Shown: one piece after another, positions 9,312 through 19,762 of the stretch | How the letters are laid out: every line of letters begins with the position of its first letter | Numbering within the stretch: the first letter of the stretch is position 1 | Source: an uncultured Candidatus Saccharibacteria bacterium | GTDB lineage: Bacteria > Patescibacteriota > Saccharimonadia > Saccharimonadales > Saccharimonadaceae | Direction: 5' to 3' | Length of the DNA: 64,000 nucleotides | NCBI GenBank assembly: GCA_947165975.1 | Contig: CAMVCL010000001.1 | Location: forward strand, 59,612 to 123,611 | Position numbers and translations under genes: made by a program | The notes under the pieces: model-generated | The model's database searches: none | What the model was told of the DNA's origin: nothing | The model's input: the letters and a program-made list of their open reading frames with translations, nothing else

Positions 9312-9730
9312 TGGATGGTGGTGTAGTGACGTTTATTATTGCTATTCTAATCGTAGCAGTTTTGGTTTTTCTAGCGATTCTCTTAACAGGGAAACATGGT
9401 TATACATTTAATCGTGAAGTATATCAGACTAAATTTTTGGCAATTGAAAATAAATTAAATCAAAAAAATGCTGCAACTTTTATGACTACTGTAATTGAGG
9501 CAGACAAATTGCTCGACAGAGCTTTGATCGAAATGGGTGTGCCGGGTAAGACCATGGGGGAGCGCCTCAAAAAATGCGGTGATAAATTTACACACCTCAA
9601 TGCGGTATGGCGCGCGCATAAACTTCGAAACGCCCTGGCGCACGAGTCAGATCTTGAAATTAGCTATAAACAATCCTATAACGCCCTGCAAGTTTACAAA
9701 CAAGCACTTAAAGACCTAGGAGCAATCTAA
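9311..9730 (+). CDS. Membrane-anchored HEPN-like protein inside the gat operon
   Basis: One N-terminal TM then a helical domain ending LRNALAHESDLEISYKQSYNALQVYKQAL; RNALAH fits RNxxxH (Rx4H). Overlaps gatA stop and gatB start by 1 nt each (TAATG). Confidence 0.6.
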   Translation: MDGGVVTFIIAILIVAVLVFLAILLTGKHGYTFNREVYQTKFLAIENKLNQKNAATFMTTVIEADKLLDRALIEMGVPGKTMGERLKKCGDKFTHLNAVWRAHKLRNALAHESDLEISYKQSYNALQVYKQALKDLGAI

Positions 9731-11142
9731 TGAAATATATTCCAACTATCGGTGTAGAATGTCATGTACAACTACGTACAAAAACCAAGCTTTTTTCTGA
9801 AGTAGATAACGATGCGCGCGGTAAAGAGCCTAATTCTTGTGTTTCGCCCGTGGACTACGCTTTGCCTGGTATGTTACCGCGTTTAAATGGTGAAGCAATT
9901 AAACTAGCAATCTTGGCAGGTCGCGCTATGAACTGCGAGATCAACGCTTTGTCCAGATTTGATCGTAAACACTATTTCTATCCAGATTCGCCTAAAGGCT
10001 ATCAGATTACGCAATTTTACCATCCAATTATCGGAGCTGGATATGTAGAGCTGCCCTCTGGCACTAAGGTGCGTATCGAGCATGCCCATCTTGAAGGTGA
10101 TGCGGGTAAACTGACGCATTTTGATACTTATTCTTTAGTAGATTTAAACCGCGTTGACACTCCATTGATTGAGATCGTTTCAATGCCAGATATTCATTCA
10201 GCTAAAGATGTACACGATTATTGTAAAGAATTATGGCGCCTGATGTGTTATGCTGGTGTGACTTATGGTGATCTTTATAATGGTAATATGCGCTTTGACG
10301 TGAATATTTCTTTGGCGCCAGAGGGTTCAAAGGAATTGGGCACCAGGGCTGAAATCAAAAACCTTAATTCCTTCCGTTCAGCTGAAAGAGCTGCTGAATT
10401 CGAAATCAAAAGGCAAACGAAGATTTTGGAATCTGGCGAGAAAGTTAAGCAGGAGACTCGTGGTTGGAGTGATGCTACTGGAAAAACTTCACCGCAGCGC
10501 TCAAAAGAGGAGGCGAAAGATTATCGTTATATGCCGGAGCCAGATATTCCGCCAATTAATCTTTCGAAAGATTTCATCGATAAAGAATCTGCCAAATTGC
10601 CGTTAATGCCGAAAGATTATCGCAAAAAATTCAATAAGACGATTTCGGCTGATATCCTGGAAGTGTTGCTGGATTATCCAGAATTGATGAAGAAACTTGG
10701 TGAAGTCGAAGAAAAACACACGAAAAATATTTCCAATCTATTTTCGTCTGTACTATTAGCCGAAGAAAAGTCTGCCGAATATCTCAATGATTTGCCTAGC
10801 GCAAAAGATTTAAATGAACTTGCCGAGATGAATGAAAAGAAAGAGCTTTCATCAACTTCAACCAAAGAGGTCTTCCTTCGATTGTTCGATCCCCAGATGA
10901 AGACGCATGGTGCTAAGCAGATCGCCAAGGAACTTGGCTTAATCCAAGAGAATGATCTAGGTGCGCTTGAAAAAATTGTTGATATCGTGCTCGCCAAACC
11001 GGAAACCCAAAAAGCCCAAGCCGATTTTAAAGCCGGTGAGGAAAAAGTAATCGGATTCTTAGTGGGTCAAGTAATGAAAGAATCACACGGTAAAGCCAAT
11101 CCGTCTGCTGTGCAAGAAATCCTTCGTAAGAAATTGGCATAA
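9730..11142 (+). CDS. gatB: Asp-tRNA(Asn)/Glu-tRNA(Gln) amidotransferase subunit B
   Basis: IGVECHVQLRTKTKLFSE, GALPGMLPRLN-type region, FDRKHYFYPDSPKGYQITQ, DFNVNISL-like and YRYMPEPDIPP motifs. Confidence 0.95.
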   Translation: MKYIPTIGVECHVQLRTKTKLFSEVDNDARGKEPNSCVSPVDYALPGMLPRLNGEAIKLAILAGRAMNCEINALSRFDRKHYFYPDSPKGYQITQFYHPIIGAGYVELPSGTKVRIEHAHLEGDAGKLTHFDTYSLVDLNRVDTPLIEIVSMPDIHSAKDVHDYCKELWRLMCYAGVTYGDLYNGNMRFDVNISLAPEGSKELGTRAEIKNLNSFRSAERAAEFEIKRQTKILESGEKVKQETRGWSDATGKTSPQRSKEEAKDYRYMPEPDIPPINLSKDFIDKESAKLPLMPKDYRKKFNKTISADILEVLLDYPELMKKLGEVEEKHTKNISNLFSSVLLAEEKSAEYLNDLPSAKDLNELAEMNEKKELSSTSTKEVFLRLFDPQMKTHGAKQIAKELGLIQENDLGALEKIVDIVLAKPETQKAQADFKAGEEKVIGFLVGQVMKESHGKANPSAVQEILRKKLA

Positions 11143-11202: not shown

Positions 11203-11973
11203 CTAAAAGTTCGGGTCTCCAAAGCTAGCTCCTGGTGTGCTATTGCCTACTCCGTGAGCTTGGTATGGATTGCCTGCAGCATTATTAATTGCATCTTGTT
11301 GTTGCTGTTGAATTTGTTGGAGCTGGTCGTCGGAGATTTCCTCATTGCCGGAATCGCCATTATTACCATCGCCATCATCACCCGGCCTAGTATTATTAGC
11401 AGAATCGACCGCTTCGGCACGTTTTTCTTCTATACGTTCTTTGGCTGCCTCAGCCATTTCATCCTTGCCAGACTCGCCATCCTTGCTAGCGCACCCATTT
11501 TCAAATAACAATGCTTCGGCTCGGTTGTATAGCACAATAGCATCATTATAACTTTCCTCATTAAACGATAGATCTCCTTGAAGCTCGATCGAATAGGACA
11601 AGTTGCCATAAATGCTACATAGAGAGTATTCTGGTGGATTATGCTTTAGACTTTCACTAAAATCAGTTTCGGCAGACTGTAAGATTTCGCGTGAGTTGGC
11701 TTGAATCAGTTTGAGGTAACCGCTATTGTAATATGGTAAATATGGTTCAATTAGGTTGCCAATTTTTTGTGCGTTAGTAATTGTAGTCGGCAGACCATAT
11801 GAGCCACCCGCCACGCCAACCGAGAACATGATATTATATATCCCAGTCCGGATAAAGAAGATGGTGGCAATTATTAGAAATACCAATGGTAAAGTGGCGT
11901 AAAGAAATAGTCGGCGACGTTTGTCAGAACGAATTTTGTCCTGATTTAATAAGCCAGGATCAAGATTAAGCAT
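11203..11973 (-). CDS. Bat-cluster membrane protein with helical-repeat-like domain and acidic/Gln-rich tail
   Basis: N-terminal TM, helical middle, low-complexity DDQLQQIQQQQQDAINN tail; overlaps the VWA gene. Confidence 0.5.
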   Translation of the reverse strand: MLNLDPGLLNQDKIRSDKRRRLFLYATLPLVFLIIATIFFIRTGIYNIMFSVGVAGGSYGLPTTITNAQKIGNLIEPYLPYYNSGYLKLIQANSREILQSAETDFSESLKHNPPEYSLCSIYGNLSYSIELQGDLSFNEESYNDAIVLYNRAEALLFENGCASKDGESGKDEMAEAAKERIEEKRAEAVDSANNTRPGDDGDGNNGDSGNEEISDDQLQQIQQQQQDAINNAAGNPYQAHGVGNSTPGASFGDPNF

Positions 11974-12961
11974 CCTTTCTACTCCTTTCTGAGATTACGC
12001 GCGTTAGGATCTCTTCGCCCTCCCAGGCTAGTAGAGCGAGTAGTATTATGGCAAAAATCCAATAAATCTCGGCGCCCGTACTGGTCGTAACGTCAGTAGA
12101 ATCATGGCTGATAGAAACGGCCGAGGTTAGGGCATTAATGGCGGCATCTGGCAACTCTCCTGATTCACGATGATAATAATCGCCATTCAAAGCCGAATTA
12201 ATGCGCTGTAAATTCTCTTCGTCGATTTTAGAGATAACTTGCTTTCGGTCATCAATCGCAATATCGGGATCATTACCAAAATAAAGGACGTAGGAATCTT
12301 CTTTGATAGCAGTATAGTCAAAGGTACCGTCTGAGTCATCACCAACTTCTTCTATAAGGCTACCTTTTTCTGAACCGTAGCCCAGAACAATAGTCCGATC
12401 GATTAAGTCCGGTAAATTACTGGGGACTTCGGTAGAATCACCAGAAACATCTTCGCCGTCGCTCATAAAGATCATTACATTATTGCGTTCCGGGAAACGT
12501 TCTTTATAACCAGAGATACGTTTAGCGGTATAATCTAATAATTCTGTGAAATTAGATGGTTTTGTGTAAAGGGAATATTTTGGCCTAAGGTACGGAGAAG
12601 CTGCTAGGATGGCGTCAGCGTTATTGGTAGTCGGCACAGCAGAATAAGAAGTGAAATCTTGTACAATTAAGCCATATTTAGCGCCTGGAATTCGATTGAT
12701 AACTTTTGTGACATCATCTTGAACTTGTTCAAACCGACGCTTATTGCCATTATCAACGTCTTTTGCAACCATAGAACCAGTCGCATCAACCACAAACCAG
12801 ATATTGAGATTGCTCATCTCGCGCTTAGATTCCTCCGTAGAAAGAGTTGGGCGGATAAGTATAATGATGACCAAGATAGCCATAGCTAAACGACGATATA
12901 CGGTTGGGTTTTTGAGCCAAACTGAAAGATTTTTGAATTTTTTCATAGACCAAGCCTCCAA
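11966..12961 (-). CDS. VWA-domain membrane protein (BatA/B-like)
   Basis: WFVVDATGSMVAKD MIDAS-like motif; NNVMIFMSDGEDVSGDS; TMs at both ends. Confidence 0.8.
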   Translation of the reverse strand: MEAWSMKKFKNLSVWLKNPTVYRRLAMAILVIIILIRPTLSTEESKREMSNLNIWFVVDATGSMVAKDVDNGNKRRFEQVQDDVTKVINRIPGAKYGLIVQDFTSYSAVPTTNNADAILAASPYLRPKYSLYTKPSNFTELLDYTAKRISGYKERFPERNNVMIFMSDGEDVSGDSTEVPSNLPDLIDRTIVLGYGSEKGSLIEEVGDDSDGTFDYTAIKEDSYVLYFGNDPDIAIDDRKQVISKIDEENLQRINSALNGDYYHRESGELPDAAINALTSAVSISHDSTDVTTSTGAEIYWIFAIILLALLAWEGEEILTRVISERSRKDA

Positions 12962-13968
12962 ACAACGATAAAGAATGCCACAATCGAGATTGTTGCAATA
13001 ATAGTTGGTATCAACGGGGAATCTTTGCGCAGTAGAGTCTCTGCACCTTCATAACGAGCGGCTTCTTGTTCAAGAATCTGATCAACAATCTCAGAAACTA
13101 CTACTGGATTAGTTTGACTCCAGGATGAAAAAGCGTAGTACCCGCCACCAGTAGCGAGTGTAGCCTCACGAAATTCCTTTAGCTCATCGGATTCATAAAT
13201 GCTATCCCCTTGGTCGATCTCTGATTGAGAACGAAACTCGCCAGTAGAAAGTCCGTAAATGGCAATGTCATAGCGTTTAGCATAGTTAGCCGCCTGAGTT
13301 AGAGTAACAATCTTACCAGCGTAGTCTTGATTATCGGTTGCCAGAATGATAGTCCTAGAGCGCTTCTGCTCTTCGAGCTTATCAAAGGCATTAACACAAC
13401 CAACTACTCCTGGACCAATAGACGAAGATGTCTGATCACGTCCAGCCACTGCGCTAGAATAATGATTCGGGTCTTCACTCATTTCTGTGAGTAGCTCAGA
13501 TAGTAGTTCGTAGTCGTCACTTAGCGGAGCAATTGTTAGATATAGGGAATCAAATACAGTCAACCCTAACCGCTGTCCTTTAAATTCACTGAGTAAGGTT
13601 GCAAAATAAGACAAAAGGTCCTGAACGTACTTATTCATGGAACCACTCACATCGAGGCAGAGCATAATGTCACGGTTTTCGTATTCTGGTCTAGACGTCG
13701 TAATGGTGACCGGGCGCGAGGCAATAGTAGCAACTGAGCTAAACGTCGTGATAAACAGAAGCCCTACTGCTAATAATAATAAATGATACTTTTTTAATGC
13801 TGCCTTATATTCTGGTAACTGCCTAACGCTAGCTGTATTGGCAAGTGGTTTAGTATTCTTCTTTTCGGTCGGTTTTTTACCTTTTTGCTGAAAACGACGC
13901 CAAAAGGCAATACCGATAATGGCGAAGAATACAAATAGAGCAACTAGAAGAATCCAAGGTTGTTTCAT
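12943..13968 (-). CDS. VWA-domain membrane protein (BatA-like)
   Basis: IMLCLDVSGSMNKYVQ MIDAS (DxSxS); RTIILATDNQDYAGK; TMs at both ends. Confidence 0.85.
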   Translation of the reverse strand: MKQPWILLVALFVFFAIIGIAFWRRFQQKGKKPTEKKNTKPLANTASVRQLPEYKAALKKYHLLLLAVGLLFITTFSSVATIASRPVTITTSRPEYENRDIMLCLDVSGSMNKYVQDLLSYFATLLSEFKGQRLGLTVFDSLYLTIAPLSDDYELLSELLTEMSEDPNHYSSAVAGRDQTSSSIGPGVVGCVNAFDKLEEQKRSRTIILATDNQDYAGKIVTLTQAANYAKRYDIAIYGLSTGEFRSQSEIDQGDSIYESDELKEFREATLATGGGYYAFSSWSQTNPVVVSEIVDQILEQEAARYEGAETLLRKDSPLIPTIIATISIVAFFIVVWRLGL

Positions 13969-14540
13969 TTTCTACCCCCTTTCCTAGGCAACTGAATGGC
14001 GCTACTTTGTAAATGCTGCATTCTTGGCAAGGCCTCGTTATCCATGATAAGCTCCCTGGCTTTTCGGCCGGAATCGAGCACCGAACCTTTATTTAAACCA
14101 TTAAACTCTTCTGGATAATATTCTTCAATCAATGTGGCAAGTTTGCTGTTTTTGGAATGCTTCAAATCCTTCAAAGTCAACACTTCGGCGTGAAAGCCGC
14201 AGGCTTCCGCGTAAAATAAGCGCACGATTAAACTAAATTCTTGGTGAGCAGATGCGGCACGAATCTTTCTCATACCAAATCTCTGTTCGGTCTCATCGAC
14301 TAGCGCAAGGTATTTTTTGCGTAGGGCCGTGATATCGATGAACTTTGGTGCCTTTGGTTTAAGGTTAGCTAAAGTCTTAAGAGATTTTTTACGAGTTACA
14401 TACAAGATAAAGGCGATGATCGAACAGATAATACCAAGAAATAGAATACCTATAAAAACCCAGAGAATAGAATAATACATTGGCTCATGCATAAGACTGG
14501 GATTTGCTAGAACTTCACCAAGGTAATTAACGCTTAACAT
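13965..14540 (-). CDS. Single-TM Bat-cluster protein of unknown function
   Basis: 191 aa, overlaps neighbours on both sides; TM near N-terminus then soluble helical domain. Confidence 0.55.
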   Translation of the reverse strand: MLSVNYLGEVLANPSLMHEPMYYSILWVFIGILFLGIICSIIAFILYVTRKKSLKTLANLKPKAPKFIDITALRKKYLALVDETEQRFGMRKIRAASAHQEFSLIVRLFYAEACGFHAEVLTLKDLKHSKNSKLATLIEEYYPEEFNGLNKGSVLDSGRKARELIMDNEALPRMQHLQSSAIQLPRKGGRK

Positions 14541-15414
14541 GTTTTTGCTCCTCTAACATTTTGAAAATTGCCGGAATTACATGTTCGTTGCTGTCAATTG
14601 TGCAACTGCATATACCTAAACGGCGAAGATCGTGCTTGGTATTAGTTTTAATCGTTTCGCGCATTTTTGCTTCGGCGTTTTTGAGGCTACGGTTTTTGCG
14701 CATGAACGCTGGGATACGTAAATCTTCCGTAATATCACGAACCTCAGAATTAACTAAGGTAGGATTAGTCAACTCCGAGTCTTCTATCATGATAACCATC
14801 TGTTCGTGGCGCACTCTCAAGCGGCGAATGATGTCTTGCGGTAGACTGGCCGCACCATACATATCGGTAATAATGATCAAAAACATCCTTTCACGAAAAT
14901 TTTTAGAGATATAATTCAATACTGTGCCAAGATTTGCTTGCGCGGCAGTGGGGCTGATAGATTTTTCATATTTAGTCAAAAATCCTTCAATGTGAGCCTC
15001 ACCCTCCTTAAGAGGGAATCTGGTATTGCCTTCGCTATTACCAAAAATCATACCAATTAGGTCATCGTTCTTTTGGGCGATATAAGATATCACGCTGGCC
15101 GCAGTCAGGGCTAATTCAGCCTTGGATTCTCCTGACGGTGCCAAAGCAGACATATTTCGACCAGCATCAGCAACAATCATAATGTTATGCTTACGAACCG
15201 CTACATAGCGTCGGATCATCGGTACGCGTGAGCGTGCTGAAGCTTTCCAATCAATATCTTTAACATCATCACCATATTCATAGGGACGCAAATCATCAAA
15301 ATCCATACCACGGCCTTTAAAAACTGAGCCATAATTACCGGAGAGTACATTATGAACTCGCCTTTTGGCGTAGATGCTCATTTTCTTCTTAACTTTGACG
15401 AGATGATTTGCCAT
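14527..15414 (-). CDS. DUF58 domain protein
   Basis: GRGMDFDDLRPYEYGDDVKDIDWKASARSRVPMIRRY is the DUF58 signature. Confidence 0.92.
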   Translation of the reverse strand: MANHLVKVKKKMSIYAKRRVHNVLSGNYGSVFKGRGMDFDDLRPYEYGDDVKDIDWKASARSRVPMIRRYVAVRKHNIMIVADAGRNMSALAPSGESKAELALTAASVISYIAQKNDDLIGMIFGNSEGNTRFPLKEGEAHIEGFLTKYEKSISPTAAQANLGTVLNYISKNFRERMFLIIITDMYGAASLPQDIIRRLRVRHEQMVIMIEDSELTNPTLVNSEVRDITEDLRIPAFMRKNRSLKNAEAKMRETIKTNTKHDLRRLGICSCTIDSNEHVIPAIFKMLEEQKHVKR

Positions 15415-15474
15415 TATTATCCTGCTTGATTGACTATTATTAGTTTTTGTGGTATAATATATATTATATAGGCG

Positions 15475-16428
15475 CTACGGTGCCACGATCTTAGAGAATA
15501 CCGCATCGATGATTGCCTCTGGATGTATCTCATCTGCCGCGGCTTCAAAATTAAGCATAATACGGTGACGTAATACCGAATAACGCATGTCCTTGATATC
15601 GTCTGGAGTGACGTAATCACGACCATGTATCAAAGCCAGGACTTGTCCGACTCGTAGTAATGCAATAGCACCACGTGGCGATACGCCATAGTCGATATAT
15701 TTAGCCAGTTGTGGCCCGATTACAGCCTGAGGTTCGCGAGTAGCCGTCACGATGTTAGTAATGTAATTCTTGATAGAATCGTCAACCCTTACGGCTTTAG
15801 CGGCCTTTTGTAGTTGTTTGATCTCTTCAAGCGAGACTTTGGCAGAATCTGGCAATGGTTCAACGGTCTGTCCGGACAGGGTATAATCTAGAATCTTGAG
15901 TTCTTCGTCTTTTTTGGGATAAGGCACTAATACTTTCAGAAGAAAACGATCGAGCTGTGCTTCTGGCAATTCATAGGTACCTTCTTGCTCGATTGGGTTT
16001 TGAGTTGCAAAAACGATGAATGGATCTGGCATATGAAACAAAACGCCGCCAACCGAAACTTGACGTTCCTGCATGGCTTCTAGCATGGCGCTTTGGGTTT
16101 TGGCACTAGAACGGTTAATTTCGTCTAACAATACGAAATTAGCAGAAACAGGACCAATCTTAGTATCAAAGGTACCTTTGCTGTAGTTATATATTTGCGT
16201 ACCAATAATATCGGAGGGTAGTAGATCTGGAGTACATTGGATACGAGAAAAACTACCATTAGTTACTTCAGCCAAAGTCTTAGCGGCTAAGGTCTTAGCG
16301 AGCCCAGGCAAAGACTCTAATAATATATGTCCTTCAGCGATCAGGGCTACGACTAGTGAAAGTCTAAGTTCTTCTTGACCCACGACCTTGGTCTGATAGG
16401 CATTCATAAGTTTGGTAATTGTATCCAT
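15475..16428 (-). CDS. MoxR-family AAA+ ATPase
   Basis: VVGQEELRLSLVVALIAEGHILLESLPGLAKT, FVLLDEINRSSAKTQSAMLEAMQERQVSV, FATQNPIEQEGTYELPEAQLDRF. Confidence 0.95.
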   Translation of the reverse strand: MDTITKLMNAYQTKVVGQEELRLSLVVALIAEGHILLESLPGLAKTLAAKTLAEVTNGSFSRIQCTPDLLPSDIIGTQIYNYSKGTFDTKIGPVSANFVLLDEINRSSAKTQSAMLEAMQERQVSVGGVLFHMPDPFIVFATQNPIEQEGTYELPEAQLDRFLLKVLVPYPKKDEELKILDYTLSGQTVEPLPDSAKVSLEEIKQLQKAAKAVRVDDSIKNYITNIVTATREPQAVIGPQLAKYIDYGVSPRGAIALLRVGQVLALIHGRDYVTPDDIKDMRYSVLRHRIMLNFEAAADEIHPEAIIDAVFSKIVAP

Positions 16429-16440
16429 TTGTTCCTTTCT

Positions 16441-17100
16441 TTATACCCAATAAAGGTTAATATTATTTGCCATTTTAAGTTTTTGCTCCTCAGTCAGTTC
16501 ATCTGGTTGATCAAAGTAATGGTTGTCGTCAAAAAGCGTGTGAGGGAGAATATCCATATAAGTTAGACCGTCCGCCTCGAGCTGAATCTTGTCAGAAACT
16601 GGCATGGTAATATTGCCAAATGCGCCATAAATATTCGCTGGAGTATAAGGTTTTAGTATCTCCATAGCAACCTGTAATTGAATGGTGGTTTTTAAAATAT
16701 CGGCAAAAATGATGATATCGCGGTTGTTAAATAATTTCGGGTCAAAATTTGGATTCAGATTCTTTTCGGCATTAATCTTAGAAAAAGCTTCTTGTTTTCG
16801 TTGATCAACTAAACCCATAAAATTACTGTAAATATAATCGTATTCACTGCCACTAATCTCTGGATTTAAGACAAAACCGCCATCCGTCTTAATAGCGCCT
16901 AACTCCCGAGTGATGTCGTAAGGGTCATCAACGGTTGAATACTGTAAAATATAGACATAGGCATGCAAATGTGCAGCTAGCTCAATACAACTAAGCAAAG
17001 AACTGCGCTTAAGACAAAAAACTATTGCATCTTCGTTACGAAATCGCCCTAGTTTTGTAGCTAACTGATCGCCAAGTGCTTGGCGATTAGGGTAATACAT
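16441..17100 (-). CDS. Degenerate phosphoribosyltransferase-fold protein (putative)
   Basis: YPNRQALGDQLATKLGRFRNEDAIVFCLKRSSLLSCIELAAHLHAYVYIL and NNRDIIIFADILKTTIQLQVAMEIL resemble the PRTase-like layout but lack the acidic PRPP loop. Confidence 0.45.
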   Translation of the reverse strand: MYYPNRQALGDQLATKLGRFRNEDAIVFCLKRSSLLSCIELAAHLHAYVYILQYSTVDDPYDITRELGAIKTDGGFVLNPEISGSEYDYIYSNFMGLVDQRKQEAFSKINAEKNLNPNFDPKLFNNRDIIIFADILKTTIQLQVAMEILKPYTPANIYGAFGNITMPVSDKIQLEADGLTYMDILPHTLFDDNHYFDQPDELTEEQKLKMANNINLYWV

Positions 17101-17189: not shown

Positions 17190-17218
17190 ATTGACAGGAT
17201 TTGAAAAGAGTGATATAA
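17190..17218 (+). promoter_or_regulatory. Sigma70-type promoter for ncRNA candidate
   Basis: TTGACA (17190-17195), 17-nt spacer, TATAAT (17213-17218), extended -10 TGa. Confidence 0.85.
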
Positions 17219-17224
17219 TTCTAT

Positions 17225-17550
17225 ATGATAAGTTAGGGATATCGGACCCGAACTTTTCATTTACCATGCCTGTGTTTGTCTTTTAGATAAACACAGGCAG
17301 GCTCCTTAACTAGATAGAATAGAAGACGAGATAATGCTTTGCATTGTAAACGTAATCATACTAAGAACGTTATTATTTGCGAACGACGGTTCGTATTGCT
17401 AAATGCAACTCTGTTGTCATAGCCCAAAAATGCTCACTTTCTCCGAGCGAGCAATGCCTAGTTCATAATTATTCATATACAAACGGATTCCTTTGTAACC
17501 ATCTCGTCTATCTTTTCTATATACTACCGGCGCTCATTTGCGCCGGTTTT
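17225..17550 (+). ncRNA. Structured non-coding RNA candidate upstream of fusA (unidentified)
   Basis: Consensus promoter; 10-bp hairpin GCCTGTGTTT...AAACACAGGC; long imperfect helix between about 17310-17330 and 17502-17522; ends with ACCGGCGC-TCATTT-GCGCCGGTTTT; no convincing ORF. Confidence 0.65.
17526..17550 (+). terminator. Rho-independent terminator of the upstream ncRNA
   Basis: ACCGGCGC/GCGCCGGT stem followed by TTTT. Confidence 0.75.
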
Positions 17551-17662
17551 AATTTGTACTTTTCTTTTTAATGAAGATATGATAGAATTGGACATAGCGA
17601 TGTCTTTTTTGAGCGTGGAAATCTTAAATTAGGCAAAAGAATAATAATTGATAAAGGAGCAT

Positions 17663-19762
17663 ATGGCTACTGAAATAAAAGATTTAAGCAAGCTTCGTAA
17701 TATTGGTATTATTGCCCATATCGATGCTGGCAAAACGACGACCTCGGAAGCGATCCTGTATCGTACAGGTCTCAAACACAAGATCGATTTGGTCAAAGGT
17801 GGCACTGGTGGTGCTGATACTGACTGGATGGAACAAGAAAAAGAGCGCGGAATTACAATTACCTCCGCAGCTGTAACGGTTTATTGGAAAGACCACCAAA
17901 TCAACATCATTGATACTCCGGGACACATCGACTTTACCGCTGAGGTAGAGCGTTCTTTGCGTGTTCTTGATGGTGCAGTCGTAGTCTTTGATGGCAAGAT
18001 GGGTGTTGAGGCTCAATCAGAGACTGTGTGGCGCCAAGCTACGAAGTATGGTGTGCCTCGTATTTGCTTCGTAAATAAAATTAACCAGATCGGTGGCGAT
18101 TTCTATAAGTCCCTCGATTCAATTCATAAGCGTTTGTCAAAAAACGCCGTAGCCATCCACTTACCAATTGGTTTTGAGAAAGATATCTGTGGTGTAGTTG
18201 ACCTCATCGATATGAAGGCTTATACCTATAAGGATTATGCCGATCACGAGCTTACCGTAGGTGAAATCCCAGAAGATATGAAAGAAAAAGCCAAAAATGC
18301 TCGTTCGATGTTGATTGAAGAAGCTGTCCAAGCCGATGAAGCTTTGATGGATAAATATTTCAATGAAGGCGAAGATTCTATCACAGTTGAAGAACTAAAA
18401 GCTGCCTTGCGCAAACGCGTACTTGATGGCGATTTCTTCCTAGTTACTGGTGGCGATGGCCGTGGTGTGATTGTAGAGAAGGTATTGGACTTGATGACCG
18501 ATTACTTGCCGTCACCTTTAGATCGTGACCAAGGTCAAACCGTAGGCACCAATCCAAAAACTGGCGACCAAATCATCCGCAAAGCTGACAATTCAGAACC
18601 TTTGACTGCCTTAGCCTTTAAGATTGCTACTGACCCATTTGTAGGTAAACTAATCTTTATTCGTGTTTATGCTGGCAAATTAAAATCGGGCGACACCGTC
18701 CTAAACGCCTCAACTGGCGACAAAGAACGTATTGGCCGTTTAGTACGTATGCACGCAAATGATCGTAAAGATATTTCTGAGATTGGCGCCGGCGATATTG
18801 CCGCTGTAGTCGGTCTAAAAAATGTTACTACTGGGACTACGCTTTGTGCTCCTACTGCACCAATCTTGCTTGAATCGATCGAGTTCCCAGATCCACCGGT
18901 ATCAATTGCAGTGGAACCAAAGACCAAAGCCGATCAAGAGAAAATGGGTATCGGTCTTTCCAAGATGGCAGAGGAAGATCCAACTTTCCGCGTCCATACT
19001 GATGAAGAAACTGGCCAGACCATTATCTCTGGTATGGGTGAGCTTCATCTTGAGATTATTATCGACCGCTTGAAGAGAGAGCATAATGTCGAAGCTAATA
19101 CCGGTGCCCCACAAGTGGCTTATCGTGAGACCATCCGTGGTACTGCAGAAGCACAAGGTAAACACATTAAGCAATCTGGTGGTCGTGGTCAGTATGGTGA
19201 TGTATGGATCAAATTTGAGCCAAACGAAGCAGGAAAAGGTTTCGAATTCATCGACCAAATCAAAGGTGGCGTGGTGCCTCAGGAATATCGCAAACCAGTC
19301 CAGAAGGGTGTCGAAGATACATTGGCTGGCGGCGTGATTGCTGGCTATCCAGTTGTTGACGTCAAGGCTACTCTATACGATGGTTCTTACCACGACGTAG
19401 ACTCTTCTGAATTAGCATTTACTTTAGCAGGTGCTCTAGCTACTCGCGAAGGTATTAAGAAAGCTAACCCGGTCTTGCTTGAGCCAGTCATGAAACTTGA
19501 GATTACTACTCCTGAGGAATTCATGGGCGACGTAATTGGTGATATCAACTCTCGTCGTGGTCGTATCGAGGAAATGGAAGATTTGAATGGTGGAGCTAAA
19601 CTAATTAGAGCTTTCTGTCCGTTGGCTAATTTGTTCGGTTACACTGGTGATCTTCGTGGTATGACACAAGGTCGCGCAGCGTCTTCGATGGAGCTTTATG
19701 CCTACGAAGAAGTACCGCCGAACGTAGCTCAAGAGATTATCGAAAAAAGAAATTCAAAATAG
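17663..19762 (+). CDS. fusA: Elongation factor G
   Basis: RNIGIIAHIDAGKTTTSEAILYRTG, DTPGHIDFTAEVERSLRVLDGAV; SD AAGGAG before ATG 17663. Confidence 0.97.
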   Translation: MATEIKDLSKLRNIGIIAHIDAGKTTTSEAILYRTGLKHKIDLVKGGTGGADTDWMEQEKERGITITSAAVTVYWKDHQINIIDTPGHIDFTAEVERSLRVLDGAVVVFDGKMGVEAQSETVWRQATKYGVPRICFVNKINQIGGDFYKSLDSIHKRLSKNAVAIHLPIGFEKDICGVVDLIDMKAYTYKDYADHELTVGEIPEDMKEKAKNARSMLIEEAVQADEALMDKYFNEGEDSITVEELKAALRKRVLDGDFFLVTGGDGRGVIVEKVLDLMTDYLPSPLDRDQGQTVGTNPKTGDQIIRKADNSEPLTALAFKIATDPFVGKLIFIRVYAGKLKSGDTVLNASTGDKERIGRLVRMHANDRKDISEIGAGDIAAVVGLKNVTTGTTLCAPTAPILLESIEFPDPPVSIAVEPKTKADQEKMGIGLSKMAEEDPTFRVHTDEETGQTIISGMGELHLEIIIDRLKREHNVEANTGAPQVAYRETIRGTAEAQGKHIKQSGGRGQYGDVWIKFEPNEAGKGFEFIDQIKGGVVPQEYRKPVQKGVEDTLAGGVIAGYPVVDVKATLYDGSYHDVDSSELAFTLAGALATREGIKKANPVLLEPVMKLEITTPEEFMGDVIGDINSRRGRIEEMEDLNGGAKLIRAFCPLANLFGYTGDLRGMTQGRAASSMELYAYEEVPPNVAQEIIEKRNSK

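Follow-up and report, generated by a model that had tools for sequence, protein, structure and literature searches.

The stretch directly upstream of fusA in a Saccharibacteria genome is almost certainly an RNA gene, and is best read as a new, clade-specific, stand-alone structured non-coding RNA. The genome (882 kb in 31 contigs; G000) was analyzed in a window of 64,000 nucleotides, to which all positions refer unless another contig or locus is named. The whole unit occupies approximately 360 bp (17191-17551) between a divergent MoxR-type operon and fusA, and its features and those of the neighboring gene are as follows.

17191..17219, forward strand: RNA promoter TTGACA-N17-TATAAT (TTGACA at 17191-17196, TATAAT at 17214-17219), with an extended TG before the -10 element.
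17226..17551, forward strand: RNA gene of about 325 nt, Rfam-negative, with homologs in six species.
17230..17255, forward strand: 5' hairpin P1.
17268..17298, forward strand: perfect 13-bp hairpin P2.
17301..17309, forward strand: conserved linker GCUCCUUAA between P2 and P3, a Shine-Dalgarno (SD) complement.
17313..17332, forward strand: 5' strand of the long closing helix P3, GATAGAATAGAAGACGAGAT.
17366..17372, forward strand: conserved AACGUUA, 5' of the GACG hairpin.
17378..17395, forward strand: hairpin P5, with an invariant GACG loop (17385-17388).
17466..17475, forward strand: conserved segment UAAUUAUUCA (AAUAUUCAA in two species).
17501..17520, forward strand: 3' strand of P3, ATCTCGTCTATCTTTTCTAT.
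17526..17551, forward strand: GC-rich intrinsic terminator, ACCGGCGC-TCATTT-GCGCCGGT (17526-17547) followed by TTTT.
17575..17590, forward strand: -10 region TATGATAGAAT of the probable promoter of fusA itself.
17663..19762, forward strand: fusA (EF-G), with SD sequence AAAGGAG; a neighbor lying outside the RNA.

An earlier note, made from the sequence of the window, had proposed both the TTGACA-N17-TATAAT promoter and the GC-rich terminator, and both are confirmed. The promoter matches the consensus at 12 of 12 positions, and a TTGACA-N17-TAnnnT promoter is found in all five homologs. In G197 and G125 the terminator stem has a different sequence that still pairs (matched by hand), reading CCCAGUAC..GUACUGGG in G197, while the loop YCAUUU is constant. 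We infer that the unit is transcribed, with the RNA starting at 17226, 7 nt past the -10 element, and ending at the T run of the terminator.

The RNA is predicted to be highly folded, with a minimum free energy (MFE) of -108.3 kcal/mol compared with -66 +/- 5 kcal/mol for dinucleotide shuffles (z -8.3; 0 of 100 shuffles as low); its homolog in G003 folds with a z of -5.1. The predicted architecture comprises P1, P2, the linker and then P3, which closes a multi-branched domain containing the GACG-loop hairpin. The perfect hairpin described previously is present as P2, though it is 13 bp in length rather than 10 bp. Across six species, 94.9% of P2 cells hold standard pairs and eight of the 13 pairs have changed on both sides, yielding a covariation score of 0.774 against 0.399 for shuffled alignments (reached by 0 of 500 shuffles) that falls to 0.20 or less once the partner strand is slid. 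This formal control covers P2, with P1, P3, P5 and the terminator matched by hand. The P1 hairpin is kept despite unrelated sequences in the main lineages. The long helix of the earlier note also holds: in the MFE fold, GATAGAATAGAAGACGAGAT and ATCTCGTCTATCTTTTCTAT pair to close the multi-branched domain. The P3 base AUAGAA/UUCUAU is kept (one pair shorter in G125 and G177), and its distal part is rewritten with pairing kept, from GACGAGAU/AUCUCGUC in the window to GACG/UGUC plus GCG/CGC in G003 and G187, and AAGUAC/GUACUU in G125. In P5, the loop is found in six of six homologs, with a predicted unpaired probability of 0.81-1.00 in all six, and the stem varies in sequence with pairing kept. 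AACGUUA (six of six homologs) and AAUNAUUCA are conserved and of variable predicted accessibility. Among the pairs of these helices (P1, P2, P3, P5 and the terminator stem) are G-U pairs, suggesting that selection has acted on the RNA and not on the DNA.

Homologs of the RNA are confined, in the genomes searched, to a small part of one Saccharibacteria genus. BLAST against 100 relatives recovered one clear homolog, at the same site before fusA in G003 (JAFQYG01, from goat duodenum), which was also the sole return of a GTDB pattern scan. Three covariance models (R1, R2 and R3) were built from this homolog and refined. Among 174 genus genomes, R3 identified six members, each a different species (G000, G003, G197, G187, G125 and G177), with scores of 90-118 bits and a next match of 23.5 bits; their RNAs span about 280-325 nt. 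The strongly diverged G125 and G177 copies were recognized only by the second model and then checked by eye, and contain in order the promoter, P1, P2, GCUCCUUAA, P3, AACGUUA, the GACG hairpin, the terminator and fusA. No further convincing member was found with R3 in a sample of 394 family genomes (best other match 23.7 bits) or with R2 in a sample of 393 order genomes, these searches having been run with Infernal's stricter filters, by which very diverged members could be missed. Phage and plasmid BLAST searches and one IMG/VR pattern scan likewise gave no match. Covariance-model matches of 20-28 bits in G012, G136, G191, G181, G388, G072, G076 and G138 were rejected as chance, as they lie in or beside coding sequence and lack a promoter, P3 and a terminator.

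In all six carriers, fusA is the next gene downstream of the RNA and shares its strand. The order gatB-RNA-fusA occurs in G003, G197, G125 and G177, where the RNA promoter starts at most a few tens of bases from the stop codon of gatB. The neighbor of the RNA in the window and in G187 is instead a divergent operon: in the window this is a MoxR/von Willebrand-type operon (11203-17100, reverse strand, first gene starting at 17100) with gatB beyond it at 9730-11142, and in G187 (locus L129, 1748-3060) the neighbors are a 219-aa gene and a MoxR ATPase, as in the window. A GatB tree covering 25 genomes groups together the five carriers that have a GatB sequence, with moderate support (87/84; bootstrap not settled). 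Given this grouping, the simplest reading is that the RNA was gained once and would since have been inherited vertically in one clade. The earlier note had left a stand-alone non-coding RNA as one of two alternatives, to be checked by conservation and covariation. Homologs in six species, compensatory changes that preserve the structure, and a promoter and terminator of its own kept in all six carriers, as expected of a non-coding RNA gene, support that alternative.

As for function, the best explanation of the whole, held with slightly less than even confidence, is a gene for a stand-alone structured RNA that represents a new family, is inherited within its clade and tunes translation in trans through its linker. 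The RNA would be produced from its own strong promoter, end at its own terminator and act in trans, with GCUCCUUAA pairing with the ribosome-binding sites of mRNAs and thereby tuning their translation, and with P3 and the GACG hairpin conferring stability or binding protein. The linker is identical in five of six homologs and retains eight of nine letters in the sixth, with a predicted mean unpaired probability of 0.54-0.91 over the six species. All six thus have the conserved, mostly accessible SD complement typical of anti-SD (C-rich-loop) sRNAs, which makes trans-acting translation regulation the leading mechanism, albeit a tentative and unproven one. In any one sequence, finding one CUCCUU in an RNA of this kind is close to chance expectation (p 0.05-0.10), so only its constancy over six species supports the significance of the linker; among nine other RNAs of the locus, CUCCUU enrichment is clear in one (G051, p 0.003). 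Weighing against this mechanism, an SD complement is generic and, in some species, the linker is predicted to be unpaired only in part (lowest in G125, at 0.54). Pairing specific to fusA was considered and rejected, given that fusA ranks seventh by duplex energy among 54 window genes, several of which are equal or better.

Nearly as likely is that the GACG hairpin and P3 serve a protein-binding role, and it is possible that the stand-alone RNA functions mainly in this way, as a 6S-like polymerase decoy, a sponge for an RNA-binding protein or a scaffold, rather than by pairing with mRNA. The RNA is large and highly folded, its constant GACG tetraloop hairpin and P3 base resemble protein or tertiary contacts, and no 6S RNA (RF00013) was matched in G000 or scored above cut-off in eight genus genomes. 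However, it lacks the 6S hallmark of one long rod of about 180 nt with a central bubble, and its presence in only six of 174 genus genomes implies no general housekeeping role.

Other genus members hold different contents between gatB and fusA. The interval is a bare gap of 114-153 nt in G046, G010, G036 and G004, and elsewhere contains SD-led genes of 129-218 aa. In two of the bare gaps (G036, locus L034; G004, L079), a TTGACA-N17-TATAAT promoter overlaps the 3' end of gatB and precedes a short hairpin terminator, giving an apparent transcript of some 30-40 nt. Other promoter-RNA-terminator units are found in G018, G055, G026, G057, G059, G045, G047, G051 and G020 (fold z -4.2 to -8.7). These resemble the window RNA in position, own promoter, strong fold and a terminator before fusA, but have no detectable sequence similarity to its family, and some hold SD-led small ORFs. 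Those of G055, G026, G047, G051 and G020 are mutually related through a shared segment, the motif of which (GCGRAAATCYYACCCAAGAARGGAG, three mismatches allowed) occurs at this locus only, in four of 100 genomes (G020, G026, G047 and G051). They form a second structured RNA family (L048, L051, L057, L059 and L080), unrelated to the window RNA and about 580-700 nt in length, with a consensus promoter and a terminator of its own; its motif GGGnUUCG..GCGRAAAUCUYACCCAAGAARGGAGG precedes SD-led small ORFs of 56-67 aa (MVRIGFLVFP...RFYYRKVEPQ in G047 and G051). The units at L054 (G018), L062 (G057), L056 (G059) and L041 (G045) fold with z of about -5 to -6 and are unlike the window RNA; in those of G059 and G057, a multi-branched domain is closed by long, nearly perfect helices. 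A doubtful reading of this diversity is that the gatB-fusA interval is a dedicated, fast-turning RNA locus, at which many lineages would each have a single-copy structured RNA of unrelated sequence; these would share one layout (promoter, long-range closed domain and terminator) and one translation-linked job, and the window RNA would be one of the versions.

The other alternative of the earlier note, an attenuator-type leader of fusA, is not borne out. In this quite improbable scenario, conditional relief of termination at 17526-17547 would allow the strong upstream promoter to boost fusA in cis, in keeping with the co-directional placement of the RNA immediately before fusA in all six species. 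Yet a TATAAT-like site, the probable promoter of fusA itself, lies downstream of the terminator in relatives both with and without the RNA, which makes an attenuator unlikely. Furthermore, the terminator is separated from fusA by about 110-200 nt, its stem covaries only with itself, no conserved antiterminator pairing was seen in the six predicted folds, and no known riboswitch was matched at the locus in Rfam. The region around the fusA promoter has features of its own. Most of the genus shares a conserved 5' leader of fusA, TGTCTTGTTTTTGAGTGTGGAGCT...AAAGGAGCATATGG (17590-17660 in the window), a separate possible regulatory element. A short distance before the fusA promoter, G197, G125 and G177 additionally contain an inverted repeat (e.g. 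AAATTTGAAATGGAAATGAATTCCATTTCAAATTT; L128 at about 1790-1835, L132 at about 1795-1835 and L134 at about 1215-1255), which is absent from the window and is a candidate operator or second terminator.

The unit is very unlikely to serve a very short peptide, whether as its mRNA or as a leader. SD-led ORFs do occur at the locus in other genus members (50-67 aa, up to 129-218 aa), but the window RNA and that of G003 contain no SD-led ORF of at least six codons, in agreement with the prior observation that no convincing ORF is present. None is conserved in the six homologs, whose best ORFs do not align; an indel in P5 shifts the frame, and sequence changes track base pairs rather than codons.

A strongly diverged member of a known family (RNase P, tmRNA, SRP, riboswitch or T-box), though of comparable size and fold, is largely refuted and most improbable, as covariance scans of the window and five homologs at gathering and relaxed Rfam thresholds gave only sub-threshold chance matches (e.g. 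rseX at 29 bits against a cut-off of 50), and tmRNA (G000:C2:71740-72092) and RNase P RNA (G000:C2:68050-68388, 221 bits) are encoded elsewhere in the genome. Neither an RF00023 match nor a tRNA-like domain, nor an RF00010 match, was found at the locus, where no Rfam family reaches its gathering score; this accords with the absence of RNase P, SRP and tmRNA landmarks noted before, and the cmscan proposed at the time provided no confident match by which to reclassify the RNA. A tmRNA-like tag (GCG AAC GAC GGT TCG TAT TGC TAA) was also dropped, since tmRNA is located elsewhere. Over the whole window, Rfam 15 identifies only two tRNAs and a SAM riboswitch (RF00162; 41774-41872, forward strand, 66.5 bits).

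A search of the open literature with few queries found no report of this RNA, nor of structured non-coding RNAs of Saccharibacteria or other Patescibacteria; a review of Patescibacteria mentions riboswitches only as tools (PMC11665869). This well-supported RNA family, whose promoter, terminator and fold are defined, lends itself to knock-out or pull-down work in reduced genomes of about 0.7-0.9 Mb, and it suggests that Saccharibacteria cells may keep, and quickly renew, dedicated RNA genes beside core translation genes.

Comparison with known systems places the fusA-upstream RNA apart from each of them. It resembles the leader RNAs of translation factors and ribosomal proteins in its site just upstream of a translation gene, but ends before the promoter of fusA itself and was not found alongside fusA outside one clade. 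Its likeness to 6S RNA lies in being a stand-alone, strongly folded bacterial RNA driven by a promoter of its own, but it is multi-branched with extra hairpins instead of a single rod with a central bubble, narrowly distributed and Rfam-negative. In the staphylococcal RNAIII and Rsa RNAs, an unpaired pyrimidine-rich segment can pair with G-rich ribosome-binding sites. B11 represses a target that contains a G tract through either of its C-rich loops (PMC10470900). The fusA-upstream RNA resembles no Rfam sRNA in sequence and has no known target, and its segment is a single-copy linker between helices to which a large multi-branched domain is added. What it has in common with these C-rich-loop sRNAs (mycobacterial B11/6C, staphylococcal RNAIII and Rsa) is that it is stand-alone and carries a constant, unpaired pyrimidine-rich segment.
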